Shown here: positions 18,684 to 38,002 of the stretch, in pieces
Layout: each line of letters starts with the position of its first letter
How positions within the stretch are numbered: position 1 is the stretch's first letter
Source of the DNA: Rhizobiales bacterium CCH10-E5
GTDB taxonomy: Bacteria > Pseudomonadota > Alphaproteobacteria > Rhizobiales > Beijerinckiaceae
Direction: 5' to 3'
DNA: 55,142 nucleotides
NCBI GenBank assembly: GCA_001556125.1
Contig: LSIG01000236.1
Location: 1-55,142 of the forward strand
Notes under the pieces: model-generated
Seen by the model: the letters and a program-made list of their open reading frames with translations, nothing else
Told to the model about the DNA's origin: nothing
Databases searched by the model: none
Translations under genes and position numbers: made by a program

Positions 18684-18716
18684 TTCCCCGCGCCTTTCGA
18701 TCGAAGGGCAGCCCGA

Positions 18717-19094: not shown

Positions 19095-19181
19095 GGTCGC
19101 TCCTCCGGCTGCCTCGTGGGACAATCGTCGTCTAGCCGCACCGCCCTGCGCGATCCTTGATCTGCCGCAGGCGCGAAGCGC

Positions 19182-20108: not shown

Positions 20109-20202
20109 GTCAAATCCTGGCGCGCGTCTCTGTCATCACCGCGCCGTGGCGGGCCGTCAGTCTGGCTGGACCTATACCCCAAAGCCGACAGGGAGACGAT
20201 CG

Positions 20203-20556
20203 ATGACGAACGAGGAAGCCATCACCACCTTTGCCGACATGCTCAAGCGCGGCGAACATCAGGAGGCCGCCGAGCGCTTCAACGCCTCCGACATTGTCAG
20301 CATCGAGGCCATGGACGGCCCGATGGCGCGGGTCGAGGGACGCGCCGCCGTCAAGGCCAAGAGCGACTGGTGGTACTCCGCCCACGAGGTCCATTCGGCC
20401 GAGGCCTTCGGCCCCTATCGCAACGGCGACCAGTTCGTCATGCGCTTCGCCGTCGACGTCACCGTCAAGGAAACCGGCCAGCGCGTCCAGATGGACGAGG
20501 CCGGTCTCTATACGATCCGCGACGGGCTGATCGTCGAGGAGCGGTTCTTCTACTGA
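20203..20556 (+). CDS. SnoaL-like (NTF2-fold) polyketide-cyclase-type protein
   Basis: A 117-residue protein of the SnoaL-like/NTF2 superfamily, with EAITTFADMLKRGEH and VVSIEAMDGPMARVEG-type features and a final EERFFY strand. It has no assigned function. The start at 20203 (MTNEEA) has AGGGAG at 20190-20195. It is the only + strand gene inside the cox-type cluster: it starts 95 bases from the MoxR start and ends 8 bases from the stop of the medium subunit gene. It is a different sequence from the other NTF2-fold protein at 18717-19094. Confidence 0.82.
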   Translation: MTNEEAITTFADMLKRGEHQEAAERFNASDIVSIEAMDGPMARVEGRAAVKAKSDWWYSAHEVHSAEAFGPYRNGDQFVMRFAVDVTVKETGQRVQMDEAGLYTIRDGLIVEERFFY

Positions 20557-20563
20557 ACTGCCC

Positions 20564-21367
20564 TCACTTCCCCGTGGCCTGCGCCACCGCCTGCTTCGTC
20601 ATCACCCCGATCAGATGGGCGCGGTAGTCGGCATCGGCATGCATGTCGGCATTGATGCCCTCGGCGGACGCCTTCAGCCCGTCGAGCGATTTCGGCGCGA
20701 AGCGGGCCTTGAGCGCCGCTTCCGCCTCCGACCAGCGGAAGACGCCGCCCTCGCCCGCCCCGGTCACCGCGACGCGGGTCTCGCTGCCGCGCTTTGCGAC
20801 GAAGACGCCGACCAGCGCATAGCGCGAGGCCGGGTTGCGGAACTTGGCGTAGCCCGCCTTGGAGACGACCGGGAACACCACCTTGGTGATGATCTCGCCC
20901 TCTTCCAGCGCCGTCTCGTAGAGGCCGGTGAAGAAATCGTCGGCCTCGATCTTGCGCCTGTTGGTGACGATCGTCGCGCCGAGCGCCAGGCAGGCGGCCG
21001 GATAATCGGCGGCGGGGTCGTTGTTGGCGACCGAGCCGCCGATCGTGCCGCGATGGCGCACATGCGGATCGCCGATATGCGAGGCGAGATAGGCGAGCCC
21101 GGGGATCGCTTCCTGGACGATCGCCGAGGCCGCGACCTCGGCATGGGTCGACATCGCGCCGATATGGATGGTGCGGCCCTTGCGGACGATGCCCTTGAGG
21201 TCGCCGCAGCCGCCGAGATCGATCAGCGCGGCCGGCGAAGCCAGCCGCTGCTTCATCGTCGGCAGCAGCGTGTGCCCGCCGGCGAGGATCTTGGCATCCT
21301 CCTTCTTGGCGAGCAGGCCGGCGGCCTGACGGGCCGAGCCGGGGCGGTGATAGGTGAAGGCGTACAT
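20564..21367 (-). CDS. FAD-binding medium subunit of a molybdenum hydroxylase (CoxM-like)
   Basis: A 267-residue FAD-binding subunit of the xanthine dehydrogenase/CO dehydrogenase family. The two flavin motifs are AGGHT (29-33) and TIGGS (108-112) followed by VANNDPAADYPAA. It carries electrons from the iron-sulfur subunit to the acceptor. It follows the large-subunit gene by 77 bases, a gap that holds a short inverted repeat. AAGGGAT precedes the start. Confidence 0.94.
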   Translation of the reverse strand: MYAFTYHRPGSARQAAGLLAKKEDAKILAGGHTLLPTMKQRLASPAALIDLGGCGDLKGIVRKGRTIHIGAMSTHAEVAASAIVQEAIPGLAYLASHIGDPHVRHRGTIGGSVANNDPAADYPAACLALGATIVTNRRKIEADDFFTGLYETALEEGEIITKVVFPVVSKAGYAKFRNPASRYALVGVFVAKRGSETRVAVTGAGEGGVFRWSEAEAALKARFAPKSLDGLKASAEGINADMHADADYRAHLIGVMTKQAVAQATGK

Positions 21368-21396
21368 GGGTGTGATCCCTTGCTGAAATCCGCGGG

Positions 21397-21436
21397 CGTC
21401 GTCCCGGCCGCATCGCTGCGGAGGACCGGGATGACG
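21397..21436. repeat. short inverted repeat, variant of the CGTCRTCCCGG family
   Basis: CGTCGTCCCGG (21397-21407) pairs with CCGGGATGACG (21426-21436) with one mismatch. The arms match the ends of the longer repeats at 31060-31157 and 41389-41493. It lies between the large and medium subunit genes. Confidence 0.6.
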
Positions 21437-21444
21437 AAGATCGG

Positions 21445-23808
21445 TTACTCGGCTGCCATGCGCGTGATGCTCTTCTGCGCCGCGCGCCAGACGGCCTGCG
21501 GCGTCGCCGGCATGGCGATGTCCTCATGGCCGAGTGCATCGGTGATGGCGTTGATGACGGCGGGCGGTGCGGCGATGGCGCCGGCCTCGCCGCAGCCCTT
21601 GATGCCGAGCGGGTTGGACGGGCACGGCGTCACCGTCATGCCCACCTCGAAGGAGGGCAGATCGTCGGCGCGGGGCATGCAGTAGTCCATGAAGCTCGCA
21701 GTCACGAGCTGGCCGTCACTGTTGTAGCGCGCGCCTTCCAGCAGCGCCTGGCCGACGCCCTGGGCGATGCCGCCATGGACCTGGCCCTCGACGATCATCG
21801 GGTTGATGACGTTGCCGAAATCATCCACCGCCGCCCAACGCTCGATCTTGGTCACGCCCGTCTGCGGGTCGATCTCGACCTCGCAGATATGGACGCCCGC
21901 CGGGAAGGTGAAATTGGTCGGGTCGTAGAACGCGCCCTCCTTCAGCCCCGGCTCGAGATCCTGCCCGCTGAACTTGTGGGCGATATAGGCCTGCAGCGCG
22001 CAGGAGCCGAAATCCAGCTTGCGGTCGGTGCCCTTCACCGAGAAATGCCCGTCCGCGAAGTCGATATCGGCCTCGTCGGCCTCCAGCACATAGGCCGCGA
22101 CCTTCTTGCCCTTGGCGATGACCTTGTCGACCGCCTTCACGATCGCCGACATGCCGACCGCGCCCGAGCGCGAGCCATAGGTGCCCATCCCCATCTGCAC
22201 CTTGTCGGTGTCGCCATGGATGATCGAGACATTGTCGATCGGGATGCCGAGCCGGTCCGAGACGAGCTGGGCGAAGGTCGTCTCATGGCCCTGGCCGTGG
22301 CTGTGCGAGCCGGTGAGCACCTCGACGGTGCCGACCGGATTGACCCGCACCTCCGCCGATTCCCACAGACCGACGCCCGCGCCGAGCGAGCCCACCGCCG
22401 CCGAGGGCGCGATGCCGCAGGCCTCGATATAGGAGGAGAAGCCGATGCCGCGCAGCTTGCCGTTGCGGGCGGAGTCGCGCTTGCGCTTGCCGAGGCCCTT
22501 GTAGTCGATGATCTCCAGCGCCTTGCGCATCGACGCGGCATAGTTGCCGGCGTCGTACATCATGATCACCGGCGTCTGATGCGGGAACTTCTTGATGTAG
22601 TTCTGCATCCGGAACTTCGCCGGGTCCTTGCCCAGCTCGCGCGCCGCGACCTCGACCAGACGCTCGACCACGAAGGTGGCTTCCGGCCGCCCGGCGCCGC
22701 GATAGGCGTCGACCGGGGCGGTGTTGGTGTAGACCGCGTCGACCTCGCAATAGATCGCCGGGATGTCGTACTGCCCGGAGAGCAGCGGGGCGTAGAGATA
22801 GGTCGGCACCGAGGAGGAGAAGGTCGAGAGATAGGCGCCGAGATTGGCCGTCGTCTTCACCCGCAGCGCCGTGATCTTGCCGTCCGCGTCGGTGGCGAGT
22901 TCGGCATGGGTGACGTGGTCGCGGCCATGCGCGTCGGAGAGGAAGGCCTCGGTGCGGTCGGAATTCCACTTCACCGGCCGGCCGACCTTCTTCGCCGCCC
23001 AGACGCAGACCGTCTCCTCGGCGTAGATGAAGATCTTCGAGCCGAAGCCGCCGCCGACATCCGGCGCCACGACCCGCAGCTTGTTCTCCGGCGCGATGCC
23101 GATGAAGGCCGAGAGCACGAGCCGCGCCACATGCGGGTTCTGGCTCGTGGTGTAGAGGGTGAAGATGCCCTCGCCCGCATCGTAGTCGCCGACGGCCGCG
23201 CGTGGCTCCATCGGGTTCGGCACCAGCCGGTTGTTGACGATGTCGAGCTTGGTGACGTGCTTGGCGGCCCTGAAGGCGGCTTCGGTCTCGTCCTTGTTGC
23301 CGAGATGCCAGTTGAACACCGTATTGTCCGGCGCCTCGGCGTGGATCACGGTTTTCGCGCCCGCCGCCCGCGCGGTCTCGACCACCGCCGGCAACACCTC
23401 GTAATCGACGGCGATCGCCTCGGAGGCATCGCGCGCCTGCGCCAGCGTCTCCGCCACGACGACGGCGACATGATCGCCGACATAGCGGACCTTGCCCTGG
23501 GCGAGCGCGGGATGCGGGCCGGCGCGCATCGGCGAGCCGTCCTTGTTGTGGATCATCCAGCCGCAGATAAGCCCGCCGACCTTGTCGGTGGCGAGATCGT
23601 CCCCGGTGAAGATGCCGACCACGCCCGGCATGGCGGCCGCGGCTTTGGTGTCGATCGACTTGATCGTGGCATGGGCGTGGGGCGAGCGCAGGAAATAGGC
23701 GTAGGCCTGCCCTGGGCGGTTGATGTCGTCGGTGTAGCGGCCCTGGCCGGTGATGAAGCGGTGGTCTTCCTTGCGCCGCACCGGGGCGCCGATTCCGGTA
23801 GCCGTCAT
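21445..23808 (-). CDS. form II CoxL-like molybdopterin large subunit
   Basis: A 787-residue molybdopterin-binding subunit of the xanthine oxidase family. The active-site loop reads AYRGAGR (368-374). Genuine CO dehydrogenase (form I) has AYxCSFR there, with a Cys that binds copper; this protein has Gly, so CO oxidation is unlikely and the substrate is unknown. The base-catalyst Glu lies in GCGEAG (E741). VGGGFGSK (251-258) is another cofactor contact. GGAGGAG stands five bases before the ATG at 23808; the frame stays open to 24276 across the small-subunit gene, but that is not coding. Confidence 0.95.
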   Translation of the reverse strand: MTATGIGAPVRRKEDHRFITGQGRYTDDINRPGQAYAYFLRSPHAHATIKSIDTKAAAAMPGVVGIFTGDDLATDKVGGLICGWMIHNKDGSPMRAGPHPALAQGKVRYVGDHVAVVVAETLAQARDASEAIAVDYEVLPAVVETARAAGAKTVIHAEAPDNTVFNWHLGNKDETEAAFRAAKHVTKLDIVNNRLVPNPMEPRAAVGDYDAGEGIFTLYTTSQNPHVARLVLSAFIGIAPENKLRVVAPDVGGGFGSKIFIYAEETVCVWAAKKVGRPVKWNSDRTEAFLSDAHGRDHVTHAELATDADGKITALRVKTTANLGAYLSTFSSSVPTYLYAPLLSGQYDIPAIYCEVDAVYTNTAPVDAYRGAGRPEATFVVERLVEVAARELGKDPAKFRMQNYIKKFPHQTPVIMMYDAGNYAASMRKALEIIDYKGLGKRKRDSARNGKLRGIGFSSYIEACGIAPSAAVGSLGAGVGLWESAEVRVNPVGTVEVLTGSHSHGQGHETTFAQLVSDRLGIPIDNVSIIHGDTDKVQMGMGTYGSRSGAVGMSAIVKAVDKVIAKGKKVAAYVLEADEADIDFADGHFSVKGTDRKLDFGSCALQAYIAHKFSGQDLEPGLKEGAFYDPTNFTFPAGVHICEVEIDPQTGVTKIERWAAVDDFGNVINPMIVEGQVHGGIAQGVGQALLEGARYNSDGQLVTASFMDYCMPRADDLPSFEVGMTVTPCPSNPLGIKGCGEAGAIAAPPAVINAITDALGHEDIAMPATPQAVWRAAQKSITRMAAE

Positions 23809-23894
23809 GATGTCTCCTCCTCTGCGCGCCTCTGACGGGCACGTCATCGTCTCAAGGGCTATCGCCCGCACGGGATGGCGCGGGCGGCGGCGTC

Positions 23895-24407
<513 letters not shown>

Positions 24408-24714
24408 CCTCATCCTCCTTCGCCCGGGTCTGCCGCCCGGCTTGTGGTCGCGCCGGTCGCTGTAACGCATCGCGCCCCCGGCCGCGGGCGCACGCTTTCC
24501 TTGGAACAGCTATAAATCGAGTGTGGACCCGCCGATTTGCGCGGTCAAGCCGGCGCGCGCGGAGGGATGAGCGGGATTTCAGGGCGGAATCCTCGCCTTT
24601 TTATAACTGACGCCGCGGCATGGCAGCGCGGCACACCGCTGAGTGGCACGCTGCTGAAATTACGCGTTTTTTAATGATGCGCGCCTAGTCTGCTCGAAAA
24701 CAAGAGGAAACGCC
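24408..24714. other. 307-base divergent intergenic region
   Basis: Shared upstream region of the small-subunit gene (- strand) and the globin-like chemoreceptor gene (+ strand). It has two AT-rich patches (TATAAAT at 24511-24517 and a T-run with TATAAC near 24597-24607) but no convincing -35/-10 pair. No gene, tRNA or clear operator is seen. Confidence 0.5.
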
Positions 24715-26095: not shown

Positions 26096-26548
26096 TCAGC
26101 CTTCGCTGACGGCCTTGGCGAAATTGGCGAAGAACTCGTCGGCGAGCTTCTTGGAAACCGAGTCGATCAGGCGCGAGCCGAGCTGCATCAGCTTGCCGCC
26201 GACCTGCGCCTCGACGTCGTAGCTGAGCAATGTCTGGCCGCCTTCCGCATCGCTGAGCGCGACCTTCGCCCCGCCCTTGGCGAAGCCCGCGATGCCGCCC
26301 TCGCCCTCGCCCTGGATGCGGTAGCCGTTCGGCGGGTCGAGATCGACCAGTTCGACCTTGCCCTTGAAGCTCGCCTTCACCGGCCCGAGCTTGACCTTCA
26401 CCACGGCGGAGAAATGCGTGTCGTCGTCCTTGTTGAGCTGTTCGCAGCCGGGAATGCAGGCCTTCAGCACGTCGGGATCGTTGAGCTTGGCCCAGACCAC
26501 ATCCTTGCTCGCCGGCAGCGTCACCTCGCCGTTCATCGTCATGGCCAT
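26096..26548 (-). CDS. CoxG-like SRPBCC protein
   Basis: A 150-residue START-like fold protein of the CO dehydrogenase subunit G family. MTMNGEVTLPASKDVVWAKLNDPDVLKACIPGCE-type start (seen at 1-36), a GxGEGGIAGFAKG loop and the C-terminal SRLIDSVSKKLADEFFANF are typical. CoxG is thought to recruit the enzyme to the membrane or aid maturation. GGGAGGA precedes the start. It is separated from coxS by the chemoreceptor gene. Confidence 0.92.
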   Translation of the reverse strand: MAMTMNGEVTLPASKDVVWAKLNDPDVLKACIPGCEQLNKDDDTHFSAVVKVKLGPVKASFKGKVELVDLDPPNGYRIQGEGEGGIAGFAKGGAKVALSDAEGGQTLLSYDVEAQVGGKLMQLGSRLIDSVSKKLADEFFANFAKAVSEG

Positions 26549-26733
26549 GGCGGTTGTCCTCCCATCCCTTGTCGCACGCGCCCGGCCCCAGTTGCAGCCG
26601 GCCTCGCCTCGGGTCTATCCAAGACGAGCGCGCCTATCCATGAGCGGAAAGCGCCGGCCCGCACAAGGGCGACCTGCACAGGGGGATCACGCGTGACGAC
26701 CGGACCCGCCCGCCGCATGGCGCCCGCCTCACC

Positions 26734-28140
26734 ATGACCGGCAGCCCCGCGGGCCTTTTCGGCGAACTCTTCGTCGATCGCGAGATGGCGGATGCGATGA
26801 GCGATCGGGCGCTCCTGCACGGCATGCTCGGCTTCGAGGCGATGCTCGCGCGCGCGCTGGAAGCCGAATCCGTGGCGCCACAGGGCACGGCCGATGCCAT
26901 TGCCGGACAGTGCGACCCGGACCTCTACGACATCGCCGAACTCGGGCGGGCCGCGACGCTCGCCGGCAATCCCGCGATCCCCTTGGTGAAGGCGCTGACC
27001 GCGCGCGTCGCCGCGGTCGATCCCGAACAGGCCAAATGGGTTCATTTCGGCGCGACCAGCCAGGACGTGATCGATTCCGGCAATGTCCATGTCATCGGCT
27101 GCGGGCTGACGCTCATCGATCTTCGGCTTGGCCGCTTGGCTGCTGCCATGCGTGCGCTGGCGGAGACGCACCGCACGACGCCGATGATCGGCCGCACCTT
27201 CCTGCAGCAGGCGGTCCCGATCACCTTCGGCGTCAAGACGGCCCTGTGGCTCGATCCGCTGCTGGAGAGCCGGCATGTGCTTCACGGCATCCTGGATGCG
27301 CCAGTCGTGCAGCTGGCCGGAGCCGCTGGCACCCTGGCCGCGCTCGGCCCCGATGGCGACCGGGTTCAGGCGCGGTTCGTCGAGCTGACGCGGGGAGCAA
27401 GAGCTTCGCTCATCCCCTGGCACGGGCAACGTCACCGCATCGCCCGCCTGGCAGCCGAACTGGGCATCCTCACCGGCAATCTCGGCAAGATCGCCCGCGA
27501 CATCGGGCTGATGGCCCAGACCGAGATCGGCGAGGTCGCCGAGCCCGAGGCGCCCGGAAAGGGCGGCTCCTCCGCCATGCCGCACAAGCGCAATCCGGTG
27601 CTCTGCACCCTGATCCTCGCCGCAGCCGAGCGCGCGCCCGGCCTGGTCGCCACCATGCTGTCGGCGCTGCCGCAGGAGCATGAGCGTGCACTCGGCGGCT
27701 GGCATGCCGAGTGGCCGACACTGCCCGAGCTCTTCAAGATCGCGGGGGCCGCGCTGGCCCAGACGATCACTCTCATCGAGGGGCTTCAGGTCTTCCCGGA
27801 GCGCATGCGCGCCAATATCGACCTGACCCAGGGCCTCGTGATGTCGGAGCGTGTCTCGCTCGCGCTGGCTGCGACGCTGGGCAAGGCGAAGGCGCATCAT
27901 CTCCTGGAGGAGGCCAGCCGGGCCTGCGTCGCGCAGAACCAGCATCTGCGCGACGTGCTGGCCTCGATGCCCGCCGTCACCGAGCATCTGACCGCCGAGG
28001 CATTGGCCGATTTGTTCGACCCCACAACCTATCGCGGCGCGTCAGATGCCATCATCGACCGGGTTCTGGCGCGAGCCGCACAGGCGGCCCTTCCCCGCGC
28101 GGCGGCGCCGACGCGCGCACACGGGGTCACGGATGCTTGA
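26734..28140 (+). CDS. pcaB: 3-carboxy-cis,cis-muconate cycloisomerase
   Basis: A 468-residue lyase of the fumarase/aspartase superfamily. The superfamily signature GSSAMPHKRNP lies at about residues 280-290, with FGATSQDVIDSGN near 105. pcaD and pcaC downstream support the PcaB assignment (protocatechuate branch of the beta-ketoadipate pathway), over purB or argH. The stop overlaps the aconitase X start (ATGCTTGA, 28133-28140). No pcaGH, pcaIJ or pcaF is in the window. The last 30 residues are Ala/Arg-rich and look like a tail. No strong ribosome binding site is seen at 26734. Confidence 0.9.
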   Translation: MTGSPAGLFGELFVDREMADAMSDRALLHGMLGFEAMLARALEAESVAPQGTADAIAGQCDPDLYDIAELGRAATLAGNPAIPLVKALTARVAAVDPEQAKWVHFGATSQDVIDSGNVHVIGCGLTLIDLRLGRLAAAMRALAETHRTTPMIGRTFLQQAVPITFGVKTALWLDPLLESRHVLHGILDAPVVQLAGAAGTLAALGPDGDRVQARFVELTRGARASLIPWHGQRHRIARLAAELGILTGNLGKIARDIGLMAQTEIGEVAEPEAPGKGGSSAMPHKRNPVLCTLILAAAERAPGLVATMLSALPQEHERALGGWHAEWPTLPELFKIAGAALAQTITLIEGLQVFPERMRANIDLTQGLVMSERVSLALAATLGKAKAHHLLEEASRACVAQNQHLRDVLASMPAVTEHLTAEALADLFDPTTYRGASDAIIDRVLARAAQAALPRAAAPTRAHGVTDA

Positions 28141-29386
28141 GCTGACCCCACAGCAGCGCGCCATCGCGGCCGGCACGGACGGCGCCGCCATGGCGCTGCG
28201 CATCGTCGCCGAGGCGGCCCGGCTGATGGGCGCGCCGCGGCTCATCCCCGTGGCCTCGGCCCATATCGACGGCGCGCTCTACCATGGCGATTCCGGCACG
28301 CTCTTCGCCGAGCGGCTGGTCGAAGGCGGCGCCCGCGTCGCGGTGCGCGCGACGCTGAATGTCGGCGCGCTGGCGCCGGCTGGCTGCGCCGCGATCCGGC
28401 TGCCGCCGCATGAGCGCGACATGGCGGGGCGCATGATGCGCGCCTATGAGGCGATGGGCTGCGAGCCCTCCTGGACCTGCGCGCCCTATCAGGCCGGCCA
28501 CCGGCCGGCCAAGGGCACGGACGTCGCCTGGGGCGAATCCAACGCGGTCGTCTTCTGCAATTCGGTGCTCGGCGCGCGCACCAACCGCTATGGCGATTTC
28601 CTCGACATCGCCTGCGCCATCGCCGGCGTCGCCCCCGATTACGGGCTCCACCGCCCGGAGAACCGCATTGCGACGCTGCTGATCGACACCACCGGCCTGA
28701 GCCGGAGCTTACGCGCCGCGGACGTGTTCTACCCCGTGCTCGGCACCCTGCTCGGCCGCACCGCCGGCACGGCCATCGCCGTCATCGACGGGCTGCAGGG
28801 CTGCACCACGGAAGACCGGCTCAAGGCGCTGGGTGCGGCCTCCGCCTCGGCCGGCGGGGTCGGCCTGTTCCATGTCGCAGGCGTGACGCCCGAGGCACCG
28901 GACGCCGCGACCGCGCTGGGCGGCCTGCCGCCGCGGGAAACGCTCATCCTGACGCCCGCGATCGTGCAGCAGGCGCTGGCGGGCCTCTCCACCGCCGGCG
29001 CCACCGAGCGCATCGATGCGGTCGCGGTCGGCTCGCCTCATCTGTCGCTGGCGGAGATCGACGAGATCGAGCACAGGCTCGCCGGCCGCCGGCTCGCCGC
29101 GCCGCTCTATGCCAACACCGGCCGCCATGTGCTGAAGCCGCTGGAGGCGCAAGGCCGCCGCGCCGCGCTGGAACAGGCCGGCGTGGTCTTCGTCGTCGAC
29201 ACCTGCGTCGTCGTCACGCCGATCCTGCCCGAGATCGCCGGCGCCGTGCTGATGACCAATTCCGGTAAATTCGCCCATTACGCGCCGGGCACCACCGGCT
29301 ATGCCGTGACCTATGGCTCGCTCGGCGAATGCGTCGAGAGCGCGGTGGCCGGCCGCCTCGTCCGGGAGGAGCGGGCATGGGCCTGA
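28133..29386 (+). CDS. aconitase X catalytic (large) subunit
   Basis: A 417-residue protein of the aconitase X family, large-subunit type. ESNAVVFCNSVLGARTNRYG (about 151-170) and NSGKFAHYAP near the C-terminus are diagnostic. Bacterial two-subunit aconitase X is known as cis-3-hydroxy-L-proline dehydratase; archaeal relatives dehydrate phosphomevalonate. The start overlaps the pcaB stop by 8 nt and the stop overlaps the small-subunit start by 10 nt, so all three are coupled. Location inside a pca operon is unusual: it may act on hydroxyproline or on an aromatic-pathway intermediate. Sequence alone does not decide. Confidence 0.9.
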   Translation: MLELTPQQRAIAAGTDGAAMALRIVAEAARLMGAPRLIPVASAHIDGALYHGDSGTLFAERLVEGGARVAVRATLNVGALAPAGCAAIRLPPHERDMAGRMMRAYEAMGCEPSWTCAPYQAGHRPAKGTDVAWGESNAVVFCNSVLGARTNRYGDFLDIACAIAGVAPDYGLHRPENRIATLLIDTTGLSRSLRAADVFYPVLGTLLGRTAGTAIAVIDGLQGCTTEDRLKALGAASASAGGVGLFHVAGVTPEAPDAATALGGLPPRETLILTPAIVQQALAGLSTAGATERIDAVAVGSPHLSLAEIDEIEHRLAGRRLAAPLYANTGRHVLKPLEAQGRRAALEQAGVVFVVDTCVVVTPILPEIAGAVLMTNSGKFAHYAPGTTGYAVTYGSLGECVESAVAGRLVREERAWA

Positions 29387-29790
29387 CCGGACAGATCCTC
29401 CTGCCGGGCCCGGCCGCGACCGGCCCCTGCCTCGCCCTGACCGCCCCGATCAGCTTCTGGGGCGGCGTCGATCCGCGCTCGGGCAGGATCATCGACCAGC
29501 GCCATCCCCAGTGCGGGCTCAGCGTCGCGGGCACGATCCTGGCCCTGCCGGGCACGATCGGCTCGTCTTCGGCCTCGGCCGTGCTGCTCGAACTGGTCCA
29601 TGCCGGCAAGGCGCCCGCCGCGATCCTGATGGACGCGCCCGATGCCATCCTGCTGCTCGGGCTCGTGGTGGCGCGCGAGATGGGCTGGCCGACGCCGCCG
29701 GCCCTGCGCCTCCCCGCCGCCGACCAGGCGCCGCTGGCGGACCGTCTGCTGGCCATCGCCGCCGACGGCACCATCACGCTCAACGACTGA
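29377..29790 (+). CDS. aconitase X swivel-domain (small) subunit, DUF126
   Basis: A 137-residue small subunit of aconitase X. ISFWGGVDPRSGRIIDQRHP and the Ser-rich loop GTIGSSSASAVL (about 50-61), which supplies substrate contacts in the aconitase swivel domain, are clear. GGGAGGAG at 29364-29371 precedes the ATG at 29377. It is followed 20 bases later by pcaD. Confidence 0.92.
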   Translation: MGLTGQILLPGPAATGPCLALTAPISFWGGVDPRSGRIIDQRHPQCGLSVAGTILALPGTIGSSSASAVLLELVHAGKAPAAILMDAPDAILLLGLVVAREMGWPTPPALRLPAADQAPLADRLLAIAADGTITLND

Positions 29791-29810
29791 ATGAGACGAG
29801 GGATACGCTG

Positions 29811-30590
29811 ATGCCGATCGAAACCCTAGCGGGCGAACCCTTCAACATCCGCTTCGACGGGCCGGAAGATGCCCCCGTGCTGATGCTGTCGAACTCGCTG
29901 GGCACCAATCTCTCGATGTGGGATCCGCAGATTCCCGAATGGTCGAAGCGCTTCCGCGTCCTGCGCTACGATTCGCGCGGGCACGGCCTGTCGGTCGCGA
30001 CGGACACGTCCTTCGGGATCGACCGCCTCGGCAGGGACGCCCTCGCCATCCTCGACCATTTCGGCATCGAGCGGGCGCATTGGTGCGGCGTCTCCAAGGG
30101 CGGCATGGTCGGTCAATGGCTCGCGACGAATGCCCGCGAGCGCATGGGCCGCCTCGTCCTCGCCAACACCGCCGCCCATATGGGCCCGCCCTCGCTCTGG
30201 GACGACCGGATCGCGACCGCGCGCGGCCAGGGCATGGAGGCCCTCGTCCAGGGCGTGCTCGCACGCTGGTTCAGCCCGCGATTCCGCGAGGCCGAGCCTG
30301 AGACCGTGGCGCGGGTCGGCACGATGCTGACCACGACTCCGGCGATCGGCTACGCCACCTGCTGCGCCGCGATCCGCGACATGGACCAGCGCGAGTCGAT
30401 CCGCAGCGTGACCAACCCCGTCCTCGTCGTCATCGGCACGGTCGACCCGGCGACGCCGCCGGCCGCCGGCCAGCTGATCGCGCAGGCCATCCCCGGCGCA
30501 CGAACGGTCGAGCTCGACGCCGCGCATCTCTCCAACCTCGAGCAGCCCGAAGCGTTCACAAAGGCCGTGCAGGACTTCCTGACGGGCTGA
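29811..30590 (+). CDS. pcaD: 3-oxoadipate enol-lactonase
   Basis: A 259-residue alpha/beta hydrolase. The nucleophile elbow is CGVSKGG (Ser95), with Asp in GTVDPATPP and His in AAHLSNLEQP. It hydrolyses beta-ketoadipate enol-lactone to beta-ketoadipate. GAGGGA at 29798-29803 precedes the ATG. Placement between aconitase X and pcaC, with short gaps of 20 and 35 bases, indicates one operon. Confidence 0.92.
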   Translation: MPIETLAGEPFNIRFDGPEDAPVLMLSNSLGTNLSMWDPQIPEWSKRFRVLRYDSRGHGLSVATDTSFGIDRLGRDALAILDHFGIERAHWCGVSKGGMVGQWLATNARERMGRLVLANTAAHMGPPSLWDDRIATARGQGMEALVQGVLARWFSPRFREAEPETVARVGTMLTTTPAIGYATCCAAIRDMDQRESIRSVTNPVLVVIGTVDPATPPAAGQLIAQAIPGARTVELDAAHLSNLEQPEAFTKAVQDFLTG

Positions 30591-30625
30591 CACCCTTTCG
30601 CCAGCCCTACCTGAAGGAGCCCCCC

Positions 30626-31021
30626 ATGGACGACAAGACCCGCTACACCGAGGGCATGACCACGCGCCGCGCCGTGCTCGGCGGTGCTTATGTCGACAAG
30701 GCCAGTTCCGGCCTGACCGACTTCAACGCCGAGTGGCAGGAGTTCATCACCCGCACCGCCTGGAACGACATCTGGAACCGGCCGGGACTGCCCCGGCGCG
30801 AGCGCTCGATCATCGTGCTGGCGATCGCCGCCTCGCTCGGCGCCTGGGGCGAGTTCCGCATCCATGTCCGCGGCGCGATCAACAACGGCCTCACCCGCGA
30901 CGACATCAAGGAGGTGCTGATGCAGACGGCGGTCTATGCCGGGGTGCCGGCCGCCAACCACGCCTTCAAGGAAGCCGCGAGCGTCTTCGCCGAGATCGAG
31001 GCGGAGGCGGCGAAGGGGTGA
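30626..31021 (+). CDS. pcaC: 4-carboxymuconolactone decarboxylase
   Basis: A 131-residue protein of the carboxymuconolactone decarboxylase/AhpD fold. RTAWNDIWNRPGLPRRERS and EFRIHVRGAINNGLTRDD are typical of PcaC. It converts gamma-carboxymuconolactone, the product of PcaB, to the enol-lactone used by PcaD. AAGGAG at 30613-30618 precedes the start. It is the last gene of the pca/aconitase X unit and is followed by a palindromic repeat that may end transcription. Confidence 0.95.
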   Translation: MDDKTRYTEGMTTRRAVLGGAYVDKASSGLTDFNAEWQEFITRTAWNDIWNRPGLPRRERSIIVLAIAASLGAWGEFRIHVRGAINNGLTRDDIKEVLMQTAVYAGVPAANHAFKEAASVFAEIEAEAAKG

Positions 31022-31059
31022 ATCACCGCCGCGCCTGATCGGTTGTCTCGAAACCACCC

Positions 31060-31157
31060 GGTCGTCCCGGGCTTGACCCGGGACCCATTCCGGAACCTCG
31101 CCGACCAGCGCTCCGGCATGGATCCCGGATCTCCGCTGCGCTGCGTCCGGGATGACC
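31060..31157. repeat. palindromic intergenic repeat, copy 1
   Basis: An element of about 98 bases whose ends (CGGTCGTCCCGG and CCGGGATGACC) are inverted with one mismatch. Inside, GTCCCGGG and CCCGGGAC form a hairpin at 31064-31084, and GGCATGGATCCCGGATC is shared with the copy at 41389-41493. It follows pcaC. Confidence 0.75.
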
Positions 31158-31184
31158 GCGGGAACCGGCAGGATCCGATCGGCG

Positions 31185-31703
31185 CTAAACCGCCTGAAAC
31201 TGCCGCTGCCGATAGATCAGGCTGCTGCCGGGCGGCGGCGCTGCGCCGCCGAGACCCACCACCTCGCCGATCAGGATGCGATGGGTCGCGACGTCCTGGA
31301 CCGCGGTGAGCCGGCAGTCGAAGGCCGCGACCGCGTCCGACAACACCGGCGCGCCGGTGGCGAGCGTCGTCCAGGGCCGTGTCGCGAAACGGGCCTCGCC
31401 CTCGATCCCACGCCGGCTGGCGAAGATCTCGGCAAGATCCAGCGCGTCGCCCGGCAGGGTATTGATGCAGAACAGCCCGCTCGCTTCGATCACCGCCAGA
31501 GTCCGGCTCGGCCGCGCGATGCAGACCAGCACGGTCGGCGGATTGTCCGAGACAGAGGCCACCGCCGTCGCGGTCAGACCGGCCCGCCCGGCTGGCCCCA
31601 GCGTGGTCACGACATGGACCGCGCTGGCGACGCGGGCCATGGCGTCACGGAAGGACGCGGCCTCGGGCGTCGCCCGCGGCGGCAAAGAGAGAGTGTCGGT
31701 CAT
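31185..31703 (-). CDS. flavin reductase family protein
   Basis: A 172-residue FMN-binding split-barrel protein of the HpaC/RutF type. SAVHVVTTLGPAGRAGLTATA, SVSDNPPTVLVCIARPSRT and GLFCINTL are typical. Such proteins supply reduced flavin to two-component monooxygenases, but no oxygenase partner is in the window. It is on the strand of the GntR gene, 149 bases downstream of it, and is convergent with pcaC. Confidence 0.92.
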   Translation of the reverse strand: MTDTLSLPPRATPEAASFRDAMARVASAVHVVTTLGPAGRAGLTATAVASVSDNPPTVLVCIARPSRTLAVIEASGLFCINTLPGDALDLAEIFASRRGIEGEARFATRPWTTLATGAPVLSDAVAAFDCRLTAVQDVATHRILIGEVVGLGGAAPPPGSSLIYRQRQFQAV

Positions 31704-31818
31704 GGCGATCCGGAGGGCCGAAGCGGCGGTTGGACCGTCATGTAGGCGCTGAGGCGCGAAAACGCCAGTTTGCGCGGTCGCTGCAACGCCCTGGACCCTG
31801 CCGCGCGCGCCGTTTCAG

Positions 31819-31832
31819 CAACATATATCATA
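31819..31832. promoter_or_regulatory. possible degenerate GntR half-operator
   Basis: Read on the - strand, ATGATATATGTTG at about 31820-31832 shares TGATATAT with the perfect palindrome at 32601-32612, but its second half differs. It lies 115 bases upstream of the flavin reductase start. It may be chance. Confidence 0.25.
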
Positions 31833-31852
31833 GGTCGCCGGCCGGCGCCGGC

Positions 31853-32554
31853 TCAGTCCCGGTCGATCGTCGCCAGCAGCCCGCTGCGCAGATGCAGCAT
31901 CAGCGCGTCGCTCGCCGCCATCGCCGCCGCGGGATCGGCCGTCGCCAGCGCCTGGGCGAAGGCGACATGGTGCCCGGCCGCCGGCACGAGATCGTCCTGC
32001 CGCTCGAAATGATACCAGGCCCGCCGGATCAGCGCCTGGAGCGGCTCCACCGCGCGGGTGGCATAGGGGCTGCGGGCCGCAGCCGCCACCGCCGCATCCA
32101 GTTCCTTGTCGAGCCGCATATAGGCCGTCGCGTCGCCCTCCGTGGCAGCCTGCCGCATGGCTCGAGCCTTCTCGACGATGGCGATGCGCTCACGCGGACT
32201 GGCGCGGCGCGCGGCATCGCCCGCGATCAGCCGCTCCAGCACCTCACGGGCATCGAGCGCCGCCATGATGTCGATGGCGTTGATGCCGGCAACGGCCACG
32301 CCCTTGCGCGGCAGAACCTCGACCAACCCCTGCTGGGCGAGCCGGATCAGGGCTTCGCGCACCGGCGTGCGCCCGACGCCGACCATGTCGATCAGCTGCG
32401 CCTCGGTCAGCACCGCGCCCGGCCGCAGCGACAGGGTCACGATCGCCTCCTCGAGGCGGCGATAGGCGGTCTCGGTCAGGCTGGGCGAGGAAGGAGACGG
32501 CTGCAGCAGCGTCTCCTCGGACCCCGATGCGTCGAAGGCGGGCTTGAGGCTCAT
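31853..32554 (-). CDS. GntR family regulator (FCD subfamily)
   Basis: A 233-residue repressor-type regulator. The winged helix-turn-helix (about 25-95) contains LTEAQLIDMVGVGRTPVREA, and the C-terminal all-helical FCD ligand domain (about 100-225) has LDKELDAAVAAAARS. FCD regulators usually respond to carboxylic acids or amino-acid intermediates. It is divergent from the cupin/oxidase/epimerase genes, and a perfect palindrome at 32601-32612 lies 47 bases from its start, consistent with autoregulation and control of the divergent operon. Confidence 0.93.
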   Translation of the reverse strand: MSLKPAFDASGSEETLLQPSPSSPSLTETAYRRLEEAIVTLSLRPGAVLTEAQLIDMVGVGRTPVREALIRLAQQGLVEVLPRKGVAVAGINAIDIMAALDAREVLERLIAGDAARRASPRERIAIVEKARAMRQAATEGDATAYMRLDKELDAAVAAAARSPYATRAVEPLQALIRRAWYHFERQDDLVPAAGHHVAFAQALATADPAAAMAASDALMLHLRSGLLATIDRD

Positions 32555-32600
32555 CGCGCCGCTCCCCGCAGGCTGTCCCGGATTGACGCGTCACGAGCCA

Positions 32601-32612
32601 TTGATATATCAA
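32601..32612. promoter_or_regulatory. palindromic operator, likely for the GntR regulator
   Basis: TTGATATATCAA, a perfect 12-base palindrome in the 241-base region between the divergent GntR and cupin genes. It is strikingly AT-rich against its surroundings and matches the size of FCD-GntR operators. Confidence 0.7.
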
Positions 32613-32795
32613 CCCTGCCTATCGCGTTCGGACGCCAGTGTCGCAATCTGCAAGCGAAACGGGTTCCGGCGCAAGACGCATTCACCGGTTCTCCCGCCCG
32701 ACAGGCAAGGCCCTCGACCCGGTGCCCCGGCTGTTGCAGAACAGACGGGCCGGCCGCCGCCCCGGCCGGAGGCAGAAGGCGCAGCGGAGAGTGGA

Positions 32796-33122
32796 ATGGC
32801 CTTTACCTGCACGATCCCAGCCCGCCCCACCGTCCAGCAGGACGACGACACCCTGCGCATCACCCGCTGGGATTTCGAGCCCGGCGCCGTCACCGGCTGG
32901 CACAGCCATGGCTGGCCCTATTTCGTCGTGATGCTCGTCGCCGGCACGCTGCGGATCCATGACGGCACCAAGACGACCGACGTGCCCCTTGCCGAGGGCC
33001 AGGCCTATATGCGCCCGGCCGGCATCCAGCACGACGTCATGAACGGCTCCGACCACCCGATCGCCTTCGTCGAGATCGAAGTGAAGCGGTCGGCGGCTCT
33101 CGCGGAGCTGTCGCTGCCATGA
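32796..33122 (+). CDS. cupin domain protein
   Basis: A 108-residue single-domain cupin. The first metal motif shows GWHSHGWPYF (His-x-His) and the second PAGIQHDV (His). Small cupins of this kind are often isomerases or ligand sensors in amino-acid or sugar-acid catabolism; this one is unassigned. GGAGAG at 32786-32791 precedes the ATG at 32796. It is 10 bases before the oxidase gene and opens the operon controlled by the GntR palindrome. Confidence 0.88.
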   Translation: MAFTCTIPARPTVQQDDDTLRITRWDFEPGAVTGWHSHGWPYFVVMLVAGTLRIHDGTKTTDVPLAEGQAYMRPAGIQHDVMNGSDHPIAFVEIEVKRSAALAELSLP

Positions 33123-33132
33123 AGGTCCGGCC

Positions 33133-34365
33133 ATGAAGATCGCCATCGTCGGGGCCGGCATCGTCGGCTGCGCCATCGCCCATGCGCTGCTCGACGAGGG
33201 CCACGAGGTCCTGATCCTCGACAAGGAAGGGCCCGGCTTCGGGCCCTCGCGCGGCAACGCCGGCTGGATGGCCCATACCGACATCCTGCCGATCGCCAGT
33301 CCCAAGATCCTCCGGCAGGTGCCGAAATTCCTGCTCGACCCACTCGGCCCGCTGGCGATCCGCCCGACCTATTTCCCGAAGCTTCTGCCCTGGCTGCTGC
33401 GCTTCGTGCTGGCGGCGCGGCCGGACGCGTATGAGCGCTCGATCCAGGGGATCGGCGCCCTGCAGCAGCGCGCCCTGCCCGCCTGGCTGGCGCGCGCCAA
33501 GCAGGCAGGCCTGGAAGGCCATATCCACCGCAAGGGCGGGCTCTATGCCTTCACCGACGCCGCCGCCTTCGAGGAGGCGCGCGGGATCGCCAGGCGCCAG
33601 GCCGAATTCGGCATCACCGTCGAGATGATCGGCCCCGAGGAACTGCGCCAGTTCGAGCCGGCGCTGAAAGACGCCTTCGTCGGCGCCGCCTTCCACCCCG
33701 ACACCGCCCATATCAGCGATCCCCTCGCCCTGACGCTGGCGCTGTTCGAGACGGCCCTTGCGCGCGGCGCGACCTTCGAGAAGGCCGCCATCACCAATAT
33801 CTCGACCGGCGAGCGCCCGGCGCTGATCGGCGCCGACGGCGTCCAGCGCGTCGTCGACCGCGCGGTCGTCGCCGCCGGGGCCTGGTCGAAGCCGCTGGCG
33901 ACGGCGCTCGGCGACAAGGTGCCGCTGGACACCGAGCGCGGCTACAATGTCAGCTTTCCCGGCGTGAGCGGGCTGACTTCGCGCCCAATCGGCTTCGAGG
34001 GCCACGGCTTCGTCATGACGCCGCTGGAGAGCGGCCTGCGCATCGGCGGCGCGGTCGAGTTCGGTGGGCTGGAAGCGGCTCCCAACCATGCCCGCACCCG
34101 AATTCTCTACGACAAGGCGAGCCAGTTCGTGGACGGGCTGCCGGCTTTCGAGACCGGCACGCTCTGGATGGGCTTCCGCCCCTCTTTGCCCGACTCGCTG
34201 CCGGTGATCGGCGCCGCGAGCCGCAACCCCCATGTCGTCTACGCCTTCGGCCATGGCCATTACGGCATGACGCAGTCGACCGTCACCGCCGATCTCGTGG
34301 CGGCTCTGGTCGCAGGCCGTCCGCCGGCGATCGACCTCGCGTCCTTCAGCCCCCAGCGCTTCTGA
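33133..34365 (+). CDS. FAD-dependent D-amino-acid dehydrogenase-like oxidase (DadA type)
   Basis: A 410-residue FAD oxidoreductase with the GAGIVG dinucleotide loop at 7-12 and a C-terminal FAD contact GFRPSLPDSLPVIG. DadA-type enzymes deaminate D-amino acids. Beside a 4-hydroxyproline epimerase, the likely substrate is cis-4-hydroxy-D-proline, as in the Lhp pathways; this is inferred from context. AAGG lies seven bases upstream. It is 10 bases after the cupin gene and 30 before the epimerase gene. Confidence 0.9.
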   Translation: MKIAIVGAGIVGCAIAHALLDEGHEVLILDKEGPGFGPSRGNAGWMAHTDILPIASPKILRQVPKFLLDPLGPLAIRPTYFPKLLPWLLRFVLAARPDAYERSIQGIGALQQRALPAWLARAKQAGLEGHIHRKGGLYAFTDAAAFEEARGIARRQAEFGITVEMIGPEELRQFEPALKDAFVGAAFHPDTAHISDPLALTLALFETALARGATFEKAAITNISTGERPALIGADGVQRVVDRAVVAAGAWSKPLATALGDKVPLDTERGYNVSFPGVSGLTSRPIGFEGHGFVMTPLESGLRIGGAVEFGGLEAAPNHARTRILYDKASQFVDGLPAFETGTLWMGFRPSLPDSLPVIGAASRNPHVVYAFGHGHYGMTQSTVTADLVAALVAGRPPAIDLASFSPQRF

Positions 34366-34395
34366 ATCAAACAGCCAACCGACCAGGCCAAGCCC

Positions 34396-35406
34396 ATGAG
34401 CAAACACACTTTTTTCTGCGTCGACGGCCACACCTGCGGCAATCCGGTGCGCATGGTCGCGGGCGGCGCTCCGCCGCTCAAGGGCGCCAACATGGTCGAG
34501 AAGCGGGCCCATTTCCTCAGCGAGTATGACTGGATCCGCACCGGCCTGATGTTCGAGCCGCGCGGCCACGACGTCATGTCGGGCTCGATCCTCTACCCGC
34601 CGACGCGCGAGGACGCCGACATCGCCTTCCTCTTCATCGAGACCTCGGGCTGCCTGCCGATGTGCGGCCACGGCACCATCGGCACGGTGACGATGGCGCT
34701 GGAGCGCGGCCTCGTCACCCCGCGCGAGGAGGGCGTGCTGAAGATCGACACGCCCGCCGGGCTGGTGACCGCGCGCTACACCCGCAATGGCGACTACATC
34801 GACAATGTCCGGATCACCAACATCGCCTCCTATCTCCATGCGACGGGCCTGACGGCGGAGATCGAGGAACTCGGCGAGGTCACCGTCGACGTCGCCTATG
34901 GCGGCAATTTCTATGCGATCGTCGATCCGCAGGACGCCTTCCGCGACATTGCCGACATCAACCCCTCCGACATCCAGCGCTGGAGTCCGAAGCTGCGCGC
35001 CGCGCTGAACGCGAAGTACCAGTTCATCCACCCGGAAAACCCGGCGATCAACGGGCTCTCGCACATTCTCTGGACCGGCGCGCCGACCAAGCCCGAGGCC
35101 CACGCCCGCAACGCCGTGTTCTATGGCGACAAGGCGATCGACCGCTCGCCCTGCGGCACCGGCACCTCCTCGCGCATGGCGCAATGGGCCGCGCAGGGCA
35201 AACTCCAGGTCGGCGACGACTTCGTCCATGAGAGCATCATCGGCACGATGTTCCGCGGCCGGGTCGAGGCCACCGCCCAGGTCGGCCCCTTCGAGGGCAT
35301 CATCCCCTCGATCGAGGGCTGGGCCCGCATGACCGGCTACAACACCATCTTCATCGACGACCGCGACCCGCTCGCCCATGGTTTCCTTGTGACCGATCGG
35401 CCATGA
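34396..35406 (+). CDS. 4-hydroxyproline 2-epimerase (proline racemase family)
   Basis: A 336-residue proline racemase family protein. Both catalytic positions are Cys: Cys90 in MCGHGTIG and Cys253 in SPCGTGTSS. Two Cys mark epimerases; the trans-3-hydroxyproline dehydratases of the family have Thr or Ser at one position. It would convert trans-4-hydroxy-L-proline to cis-4-hydroxy-D-proline for the DadA-like oxidase upstream. The later steps (deaminase and semialdehyde dehydrogenase) are not in the window. Confidence 0.9.
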   Translation: MSKHTFFCVDGHTCGNPVRMVAGGAPPLKGANMVEKRAHFLSEYDWIRTGLMFEPRGHDVMSGSILYPPTREDADIAFLFIETSGCLPMCGHGTIGTVTMALERGLVTPREEGVLKIDTPAGLVTARYTRNGDYIDNVRITNIASYLHATGLTAEIEELGEVTVDVAYGGNFYAIVDPQDAFRDIADINPSDIQRWSPKLRAALNAKYQFIHPENPAINGLSHILWTGAPTKPEAHARNAVFYGDKAIDRSPCGTGTSSRMAQWAAQGKLQVGDDFVHESIIGTMFRGRVEATAQVGPFEGIIPSIEGWARMTGYNTIFIDDRDPLAHGFLVTDRP

Positions 35407-35581: not shown

Positions 35582-35688
35582 CCAAATGGCAAGGCGTTGG
35601 TAGCTCTGCATGGTGATCGCATCCCGCATGCGTCGGCGTCATGCCGGCCCACGAGAACGGGAGCGGGTTCAAGGGGTCTGCGTCGTCC

Positions 35689-36606
35689 ATGGAAGTGTTC
35701 CTGCAGCAGCTCATCAACGGGCTGACCCTCGGGTCGATCTACGGCCTCATCGCCATCGGCTACACGATGGTCTTCGGCATCATCGGCATGGTGAACTTCG
35801 CCCATGGCGACATCTTCATGCTCTCGGCCTTCATCGCGCTGATCTTCTTCATGCTGATCGCCTCCTGGTTCGGGGCGGGGCTGATCGTGGTGGCGCTGAT
35901 CCTGGTCCTGGTGCTGGCGATGTTCTTCACCTCGCTCTGGAACTGGACGATCGAGCGCGTCGCCTACCGGCCCCTGCGCGGCTCCTTCCGCCTAGCCCCG
36001 CTGATCTCGGCGATCGGCATGTCGATCTTCCTGATGAACTTCGTCCAGGTCGTGCAGGGCCCGCGCAACAAGTCGACGCCGCCCATGCTCAACAAGTCGA
36101 TCACCCTGATCGAAAGCGCGACCTACCCCGTCCAGATCTCCTACAAGCAGATCGTCATCATCGTGACGACCGCGATCCTGCTGGCCGCCTTCTGGTATGT
36201 CGTGCAGAAGACGCCACTCGGCCGCGCCCAGCGCGCCTGCGAGCAGGACCGCAAGATGGCCGGCCTGCTCGGCATCGACGTCGACCGCACGATCTCGATC
36301 ACCTTCGTGATGGGCGCCGCGCTCGCGGCCGTCGCCGGCGTGATGTACCTCGTGCTCTACGGCGTGGTCAGCTTCCATGACGGCTTCGTGCCCGGCGTGA
36401 AGGCCTTTACCGCCGCCGTGCTGGGCGGCATCGGCTCCCTGCCCGGCGCCGTGATCGGCGGGCTGCTGATCGGGCTGATCGAGGTCATGTGGTCGGCCTA
36501 TTTCACCATCGACTACAAGGACGTCGCGGCCTTCTGCATCCTCGCCATCGTCCTGGTCTTCATGCCGTCGGGCATCCTCGGCCGCCCCGAAGTCGAGAAG
36601 GTCTGA
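35689..36606 (+). CDS. livH: branched-chain amino acid-type ABC transporter permease
   Basis: A 305-residue inner-membrane permease of the LivH family: [22 protein letters not shown] at the N-terminus and [20 protein letters not shown] near the C-terminus are classic. About eight hydrophobic helices. I chose the ATG at 35689 (MEVFLQQ) because homologues begin there; the frame is open to 35641. It heads livH-M-G-F, a small membrane protein and a binding protein. The ligand may be hydroxyproline or an aromatic acid rather than Leu/Ile/Val, given the upstream genes. Confidence 0.93.
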
Positions 36607-36610
36607 CGCC

Positions 36611-38002
36611 ATGGCCGCACCCGTTCCCGCCGCGACGACCGAGACTGCTCCCCGGCACGACTATGCCGCAGCCTTCAAGGAAGCCGGCTTCGCCGCGCTG
36701 ATCACCTTCGGCCTCTGCATCCCCATCATCGCCTGGGGCACGCGCCAGAACATGGACAATGTCCTGGTGCTGGACCCCCGCTGGGACGCGGTCGCCTGGG
36801 CGGTCGCCATCGTCTTCGTCGGCCGATTCGTCGTGGCGCTGCGCCAGCAGACCAAGGCGAGCCGCCAGTCGATGGTCCGCTTCCTGCCGAAGGGAACCTT
36901 CGCCTTCTTCCAGCGCCATTCGAAGCTGTTCTCGCTCTTCGGCCTGGGCTTCCTCGTCACCTTCCCGATCATTGCGATAAATCTCGCGGGCTGGGGCGGC
37001 GCGCTGAAATGGATCGACAATTTCGGCATCCAGATCCTGATCTACGTCATGCTCGGCTGGGGGCTGAACATCGTCGTCGGCCTCGCCGGCCTGCTCGATC
37101 TCGGCTACGTCGCCTTCTATGCCGTCGGCGCCTATTCCTACGCGCTGCTGGCGAAGAATTTCGGCCTGTCCTTCTGGATCCTGCTGCCGCTGTCCGGCAT
37201 CCTCGCCGCCTTCTGGGGCATGCTGCTCGGCTTCCCGGTGCTGCGCCTGCGCGGCGACTATCTGGCGATCGTGACGCTGGCCTTCGGCGAGATCATCCGC
37301 CTCGTCCTGATCAACTGGGTCGATTTTTCCGGCGGCTATGCCGGCATTTCCGGCATCCCGCGCCCGACCTTCTTCGGCATCCCCTTCAACGCCAGCGACA
37401 CTGGCTTCGCCGCCGTTTTCGGGCTCGAATTCACCCCGCTCTACCGCACGATCTTCCTCTACTACCTGATCCTGGCCCTGGCCCTTCTCACTGCCGTGGT
37501 GACGCTGCGCCTGCGCCGCCTGCCGGTCGGCCGCGCCTGGGAGGCGTTGCGCGAGGACGAGATCGCCTGCCGCTCGCTCGGCATCAACACGACCTCGACC
37601 AAGCTCACCGCCTTCTCGATCGGGGCCATGTTCGGCGGCTTCGCCGGCGCCTTCTTCTCGGCCCGCCAGGGCTTCATCTCGCCGGAATCCTTCGTCTTCA
37701 TGGAATCGGCGGTGATCCTGGCGATCGTCGTGCTCGGCGGCATGGGCTCGCTCTGGGGCTGCGCCATCGCCGCGATCGTGATGATCGGCGGCACCGAGCT
37801 GCTGCGCGAGTTGGACTGGCTGAAGGCCGTCTTCGGCAACGACTTCGACCCCACCAAGTACCGCATGCTGATCTTCGGCCTCGCCATGGTCGTGATCATG
37901 ATCTGGAAGCCGCGCGGGCTGATCTCGACCCGCGAGCCGACCGCCTTCCTGAAGGAGAAGAAGTCGATCTCCGCCGACATGGTCCAGGAGGGGCACGGCT
38001 GA
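36611..38002 (+). CDS. livM: branched-chain amino acid-type ABC transporter permease
   Basis: A 463-residue permease of the LivM family. The first 110 residues are an N-terminal extension with extra hydrophobic helices; then [23 protein letters not shown] marks the conserved core, and the EAA-like loop [15 protein letters not shown] is present. AGAAGG inside the end of livH serves as ribosome binding site, and the stop overlaps the livG start (TGATG, 38000-38004). Confidence 0.95.

Follow-up and report, generated by a model that had tools for sequence, protein, structure and literature searches.

A two-subunit aconitase X, most likely a cis-3-hydroxy-L-proline dehydratase, encoded among beta-ketoadipate genes in the Bosea clade

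The window analysed here is the whole stretch of 55,142 nucleotides (nt) of contig LSIG01000236.1 from Rhizobiales bacterium CCH10-E5 (assembly GCA_001556125.1). At positions 26734-31021, it carries the genes for the two subunits of an aconitase X (AcnX), placed between pcaB on one side and pcaD and pcaC on the other, that is, among genes of the beta-ketoadipate pathway of protocatechuate breakdown. Taken together, the data make it quite probable that this AcnX is of the hydroxyproline type, and that ordinary beta-ketoadipate pcaB, pcaD and pcaC genes have settled in its locus, where they would share its transcript but no substrate. To our knowledge, the hydroxyproline and protocatechuate pathways have no common intermediate. 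The locus would be a catabolic operon assembled from parts of two unrelated pathways, apparently expressed as one transcript, in which either part can be gained, lost or exchanged singly. As far as searches of open-licence literature show, this mixed operon is a new arrangement: their listings gave no description of it among papers on hydroxyproline or aconitase X with protocatechuate or ketoadipate genes, or on hydroxyproline in Bosea. It also cautions that the substrate of an enzyme should not be inferred from its operon alone.

Gene order and identity of the encoded proteins

The five genes follow one another in tandem on the + strand in the order pcaB, AcnX large subunit, AcnX small subunit, pcaD and pcaC. 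As stated in an earlier, sequence-only reading of this DNA, pcaB overlaps the large subunit gene by 8 nt, the large subunit gene overlaps the small one by 10 nt, and 20 nt separate the latter from pcaD; a gap of 35 nt precedes pcaC. The overlapping frames suggest a single transcript with coupled translation. A scan of 26400-33300 for sigma-70-like promoters found none for 0.4 expected, a result that carries little weight in GC-rich alphaproteobacterial DNA.

Judged from the curated cut-offs that they reach, pcaB, pcaD and pcaC are genuine beta-ketoadipate genes. They encode a 3-carboxy-cis,cis-muconate cycloisomerase (26734-28140; TIGR02426, 374.6 bits, cut-off 355.75), a 3-oxoadipate enol-lactonase (29811-30590; TIGR02427, 308.8 bits, cut-off 255.85) and a 4-carboxymuconolactone decarboxylase (30626-31021; TIGR02425, 159.6 bits, cut-off 155.7), respectively. 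With a second pcaB model, NF006554, the first of them scores 544.9 bits, under the cut-off of 595; its product contains the motif GSSAMPHKRNP, which we take to be the signature of its family. The pcaHG genes are absent from the genes assigned around the operon in the window, and the pca genes present there do not make a self-contained pca operon.

The large, catalytic subunit of AcnX (28133-29386) matches PF04412 (409.8 bits) and the small, swivel subunit (29377-29790) matches PF01989 (91.6 bits), both above cut-off; they align to the Agrobacterium enzyme of PDB entry 7cnp with E values of 6.5e-72 and 2.6e-21, respectively. As described in two publications, cis-3-hydroxy-L-proline dehydratases comprise AcnX of the fused type I and of the two-subunit type IIa, archaeal type IIb AcnX is a mevalonate 5-phosphate dehydratase, and the landmark residues are missing from types IIc-IIf (PMC8184944, PMC5144071). 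We transferred the residue numbering from alignments printed in PMC8184944 to the alignment with 7cnp. By this comparison, the AcnX of the window retains Trp35, Ser70, Asp203, Asn233, Cys273, Glu292, Ser293, Asn294, Cys508, Lys530 and Tyr534. Ser replaces both Cys71 and Thr72, Leu replaces Ile206, and nothing aligns with Cys510 in the pairwise comparison. In an alignment of 119 large-subunit and 117 small-subunit rows (12 loci present twice, via two routes), the large-subunit sites named, including Leu206 and with the exception of the Cys510 column, are invariant in all 119 rows. Small-subunit sites are invariant wherever they are covered (115 of 117 rows for Trp35, 113 of 117 for Ser70 and its two neighbours, the remainder being gaps). 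The named residues are alike in loci with and without linked pca genes. Mevalonate 5-phosphate dehydratase activity was considered and rejected: from the archaeal residues given in PMC8184944, type IIb would have Leu, Val, Ala and Ser at positions 35, 72, 203 and 206, where the window has Trp, Ser, Asp and Leu. This AcnX is most likely a cis-3-hydroxy-L-proline dehydratase, ordinary for its family, with cis-3-hydroxyproline as its probable sole substrate.

The genes downstream point in the same direction. About 2 kb beyond the operon, and unmentioned in the sequence-only reading, hydroxyproline genes occupy 33133-35406 on the + strand. They encode an FAD-dependent D-amino-acid dehydrogenase, probably a D-hydroxyproline dehydrogenase (33133-34365; PF01266; PRK00711, 180.4 bits, under the cut-off of 383), and a 4-hydroxyproline epimerase (34396-35406; NF010578, 591.6 bits, cut-off 376). 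Behind them lies, on the same strand and likewise unmentioned in that reading, a Liv-type ABC transporter (35641-41266; LivH, LivM, LivG, LivF, a DUF6867 protein and a periplasmic binding protein). The dehydrogenase, epimerase and transporter therefore place AcnX in a hydroxyproline neighbourhood, and the first two, standing beside AcnX, give the locus the composition by which we recognise a hydroxyproline cluster.

The remaining neighbours are as follows. A flavin reductase gene (31185-31703, - strand; PF01613, no NCBIfam cut-off reached) is convergent with pcaC and is followed by a GntR/FCD regulator gene (31853-32554, - strand; PF00392, PF07729). An open frame on the - strand (32682-33305) overlaps the start of the dehydrogenase gene; it has no Pfam match, recurs in many Bosea-clade loci at 56-86% identity and may be only a mirror of the opposite strand. 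Upstream, a CoxG-like gene (26096-26548, - strand; PF06240) forms the boundary of the operon in Bosea-clade loci. Beyond it and a chemoreceptor gene stands a cox-type molybdenum hydroxylase cluster (17351-24470, - strand; CoxS, CoxL, CoxM, CoxD- and CoxE-like), parts of which recur beside AcnX in most loci of the family survey described below. The genes purB and rpe are found downstream of the transporter. The window is Bosea-like: its nearest AcnX relative, at 98% identity, comes from a Bosea metagenome-assembled genome.

Distribution of AcnX and pca genes among relatives

Of the 489 relatives found, the 80 closest loci were kept, and 30 of these (L001-L030) make up the Bosea clade, as delimited by an AcnX identity of at least 81% and by the tree. 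For the sequence-only reading, a gene order unique to this strain would have counted against it. The order pcaB-AcnX-pcaD-pcaC is present in 18 of the 30 Bosea-clade loci, which rules out a strain-specific order or a chimeric assembly. One pca gene is left in L012 (pcaD) and in L020 (pcaC), and the other ten loci have AcnX without pca genes, as has a further Bosea-like locus (L204, genome G580). The 8-nt overlap between pcaB and AcnX is common to 12 of the 18 full-order loci. The other junctions are a 1-nt gap (L016 and L021), a 3-nt gap (L006) and a 7-nt overlap (L011, where pcaB has an internal stop and is truncated by the contig end), and those of L003 and L008 were not resolved by the script. 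Matches to pcaB of about 30% in L013, L023, L024 and L025 were set aside; the gene at the corresponding place in the window is purB. The remaining 50 loci, several of which have short flanks, showed no pca gene next to AcnX apart from a 26% pcaD match in L048, also set aside. Outgroups such as L031, L034 and L072 have AcnX with dehydrogenase, epimerase and transporter genes and without pca genes. In L041 and L175, AcnX is near a gene of the DHDPS family, to which the deaminase of hydroxyproline breakdown belongs.

Because outgroups have AcnX in this syntenic position and no pca genes with it, insertion of AcnX into a ready-made pca operon is less likely. The sequence-only reading had proposed the capture of a hydroxyproline enzyme; the hydroxyproline identity is supported by the residues and the downstream genes, but synteny suggests another direction, with pca genes moving into an AcnX/hydroxyproline locus and not AcnX into a pca operon. 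However, pcaD itself may be old in the locus, so that the parts could also have arrived in another order.

Two side observations concern AcnX itself. The Bosea-clade genome G016 has a second two-subunit AcnX (L136:8692-10493), 63% identical, whose different surroundings include genes for a proline-racemase-like protein, a LivF-like ABC protein and an aminotransferase. In addition, L055, titled Bacillus subtilis strain SK6B4, has an AcnX locus resembling Pseudochrobactrum loci, with similar identities; it is probably a mislabelled or mixed assembly.

In an order-wide sample of 397 genomes, 53 gave a pcaB match (E up to 1e-90) and 71 an AcnX match (E up to 1e-60); of the genomes with both, G001 and G412 alone have the two matches side by side. 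G412 is outside the Bosea clade (AcnX 69% and pcaB 48% identical), and its pcaB overlaps AcnX by 4 nt at the same syntenic place. On the pcaB tree G412 stands apart from Bosea, though a single clade is not rejected (approximately unbiased test, p 0.092). The same sample contains two Bosea-like loci with pca genes and no AcnX: G335 has the order COXG-pcaB-pcaD-pcaC-FlavRed-GntR-DAO, whereas pcaB is the sole pca gene at the G400 locus. Neither locus yielded a convincing remnant of AcnX when searched for one (best E 0.099), and both genomes encode a fused enzyme scoring 869 and 871 bits, respectively, for a C3LHyp dehydratase cut-off of 700. A 4-hydroxyproline epimerase was present, at the locus or elsewhere, in all 16 genomes searched.

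Single exchange of a pca gene can also be seen among close relatives. Identity of the window's pcaB to those of L001 and L002 is 67%, for an AcnX identity of 97-98%, and the 8-nt overlap is retained in both despite the divergence of pcaB. At the DNA level, identity between the window and L001 is 64-87% within 26750-28100 and 78-98% in the remaining bins. Only pcaB was exchanged, and since identity to L004 within the same segment stays at 78-91%, this probably happened in the L001/L002 line. On the AcnX tree, the fewest-change count for pcaB is 3, a figure that does not distinguish gain from loss. AcnX without pca genes, pca genes without AcnX and the exchange of pcaB alone lead us to conclude that AcnX and the pca genes come and go independently.

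The dioxygenase gene pcaH lies elsewhere. All 18 full-order genomes have it on a different contig, and in G001, the one genome examined in this respect, a CoA-transferase gene adjoins it. The locus pcaB is the only match above 270 bits in 16 of the 18, G003 and G019 having a second. Of the 12 genomes lacking that order, 11 carry a pcaB match above 300 bits elsewhere, G023 carrying only a fragment.

A more persistent association was found for pcaD. Family-wide, 48 of 248 genomes have a window-type AcnX, of which 11 belong to the Bosea clade and 37 do not, the split being made by identity; 36 of the latter were examined in the family survey and G032 as L032 in the survey of the 80 loci. Near AcnX, these 37 genomes have pcaB in one case and pcaD in 15, and no pca gene was found there in 21, some with short flanks. 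The locus pcaD is behind AcnX in G443 and G482 and upstream of it in the other 13, with the flavin reductase gene in between in 12. On the pcaD tree, all 27 locus rows and one outsider, G438, form a group of 28 rows with moderate support (90/89); an exclusive clade of the 27 is not shown and not rejected (p 0.238). Thirteen of the 15 genomes have pcaH, and 12 have no second pcaD (E up to 1e-55). Both pcaH and pcaB are present in 10 of these 12, where the locus pcaD therefore serves the protocatechuate pathway. In G482 (L188) and G560 (L182), neither an intradiol dioxygenase (E up to 1e-12) nor pcaB (E up to 1e-70) was found, and the locus pcaD retains Ser, Asp and His. A relic is the safer reading of these two genes, because genome completeness is uncertain and because, in G482, pcaD has ambiguous bases and a long branch in the tree. 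G477 and G501 yielded no pcaH, intradiol dioxygenase, pcaB or pcaD in the same searches.

Proposed function and competing explanations

It can be proposed that cis-3-hydroxy-L-proline, taken up by an amino-acid transporter, would be dehydrated by AcnX, and that another enzyme would reduce the product to proline. PcaHG, made from a different locus, would cleave protocatechuate, and the product would pass to PcaB, PcaC and PcaD, settled around AcnX in the hydroxyproline locus and expressed from its transcript; as PcaHG is encoded elsewhere, the protocatechuate pathway would be split. Co-expression might answer to hydroxyproline-rich and phenolic plant matter becoming available together, which is a guess. 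According to PMC4495286, protocatechuate genes affect how well a rhizobium fares in the pea rhizosphere. Gene order, residues, the independent gain and loss of the parts and the fused enzyme in genomes missing AcnX are observed; the activity, the shared transcript and why the genes would be co-expressed are inferred.

Several observations weigh against this reading. The changes of Thr72 to Ser and of Ile206 to Leu affect the pocket, and Leu206 is invariant in the group; therefore, conservative as these changes are, the substrate could differ somewhat. The fused enzymes of G335 and G400, which pass the NF051439 cut-off, share Ser at position 72. With this fused-enzyme model, the large and small subunits of the window score 355.2 and 110.4 bits, short of the cut-off of 700. 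A 47% AcnX relative on a Pseudomonas plasmid has another setting (aldolase and short-chain dehydrogenase/reductase genes) with neither pca nor hydroxyproline genes. A fused relative in Paracoccus is within a hydroxyproline cluster, and a Caballeronia record carried no annotation. In Mesorhizobium, Phyllobacterium and Ochrobactrum loci (L052, L063 and L048), AcnX is beside a moeB/ThiF-type gene and, in L052 (4493-11652), also near dnaA-dnaN-recF; a 2-hydroxyacid dehydrogenase gene is near AcnX as well in these three loci, where no hydroxyproline genes were seen. A pyrroline-2-carboxylate reductase was not identified in these genomes, no search having been made for one. Finally, the coupled overlap is conserved in two thirds of the full-order loci, and the tie between pcaD and AcnX persists across the family to a degree not expected of a passing neighbour.

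The sequence-only reading had raised an undescribed branch of the aromatic pathway, in which AcnX would act on a protocatechuate-pathway intermediate. The position of AcnX between pcaB and pcaD with overlapping frames, and the recurrence of the pcaB-AcnX adjacency in G412, agree with it. Nevertheless, we regard it as very unlikely: Asp203, which binds the amino acid, and Trp35 are retained, the residues do not differ between pca-linked and unlinked loci, and AcnX without pca as well as pca without AcnX are met at the same locus. Such a branch was set aside as the leading explanation on the independent segregation of AcnX and pca and on the occurrence of the fused enzyme in the genomes whose locus is missing AcnX (G335 and G400). 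Another proposal is that PcaD, and at times PcaB and PcaC, does something at this locus other than protocatechuate breakdown, together with AcnX. The long-lasting pcaD-AcnX linkage and the preserved Ser, Asp and His in G482 and G560 would fit, but 10 of the 12 genomes whose sole pcaD is at the locus have pcaH and pcaB elsewhere, the G482 gene looks like a decaying relic, and many AcnX loci have no pcaD; this proposal is improbable. There is a similarly slight chance that PcaD (joined in some lineages by PcaB or PcaC) and AcnX, perhaps with the neighbouring cox-type molybdenum hydroxylase and flavin reductase, belong to a so far undescribed route that handles a hydroxyproline-like or other N-heterocyclic acid, which would explain the persistence of pcaD without an intradiol dioxygenase.

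A further explanation adds to the proposed enzymology. Selection for joint induction on plant-derived material could keep AcnX and pca together as a stable supraoperonic unit, an idea to which we give somewhat less than an even chance. It would account for a five-gene order kept in 18 Bosea-clade loci, 12 of them with the overlap, for the presence of pcaB ahead of AcnX in G412 too, and for a pcaD of one gene group near AcnX in 15 of the 37 other genomes despite two placements. However, 12 of the 30 Bosea-clade loci are without the full order, no pca gene was found near AcnX in 21 of the 37 (some flanks being short), and pcaD and AcnX do not form one operon in the 13 genomes with an upstream pcaD. 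The reading of a hydroxyproline-type AcnX with settled pca genes is the one we favour. It leaves unexplained the family-wide persistence of pcaD near AcnX; the relatives with and without each part offer material for testing how AcnX and pca are related.

Comparison with known systems

With the two-subunit type IIa AcnX, as described in PMC8184944, the window enzyme has in common the separate subunits, the catalytic Ser, Lys, Tyr and Glu, Trp35 and Asp203, and the presence of only two cluster cysteines, 273 and 508. That description calls the binding sites completely conserved, whereas the window has Ser72 and Leu206, the comparison being made with the description and not with the A. brasilense sequence. 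Unlike the type IIa enzyme of that text, the window AcnX sits between pca genes. The fused type I LhpI/C3LHyp dehydratase (Agrobacterium 7cnp; NF051439) shows the same catalytic residues and, by sequence, the same fold, and its published clusters have a hydroxyproline gene context as here; but it is fused and has Cys71 and Cys510, whereas the window enzyme is split and has neither. It is this fused type that replaces the window-type AcnX in G335 and G400.

In supraoperonic pca clusters, pca genes stand beside other aromatic genes. The window likewise has genuine pcaB, pcaD and pcaC in one direction of transcription; unlike in these clusters, pcaHG is lacking beside them, AcnX splits pcaB from pcaDC and the neighbours are hydroxyproline genes. 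Of the enzymes of hydroxyproline breakdown, the examined stretch of the window yielded neither a deaminase nor a semialdehyde dehydrogenase nor a pyrroline reductase, the last not having been searched for. As in the L-hydroxyproline cluster described in PMC5144071, an epimerase, an enzyme of the D-hydroxyproline dehydrogenase type, an ABC transporter, a regulator and AcnX are found together in the window, whose cluster differs from the described one in carrying pca genes.

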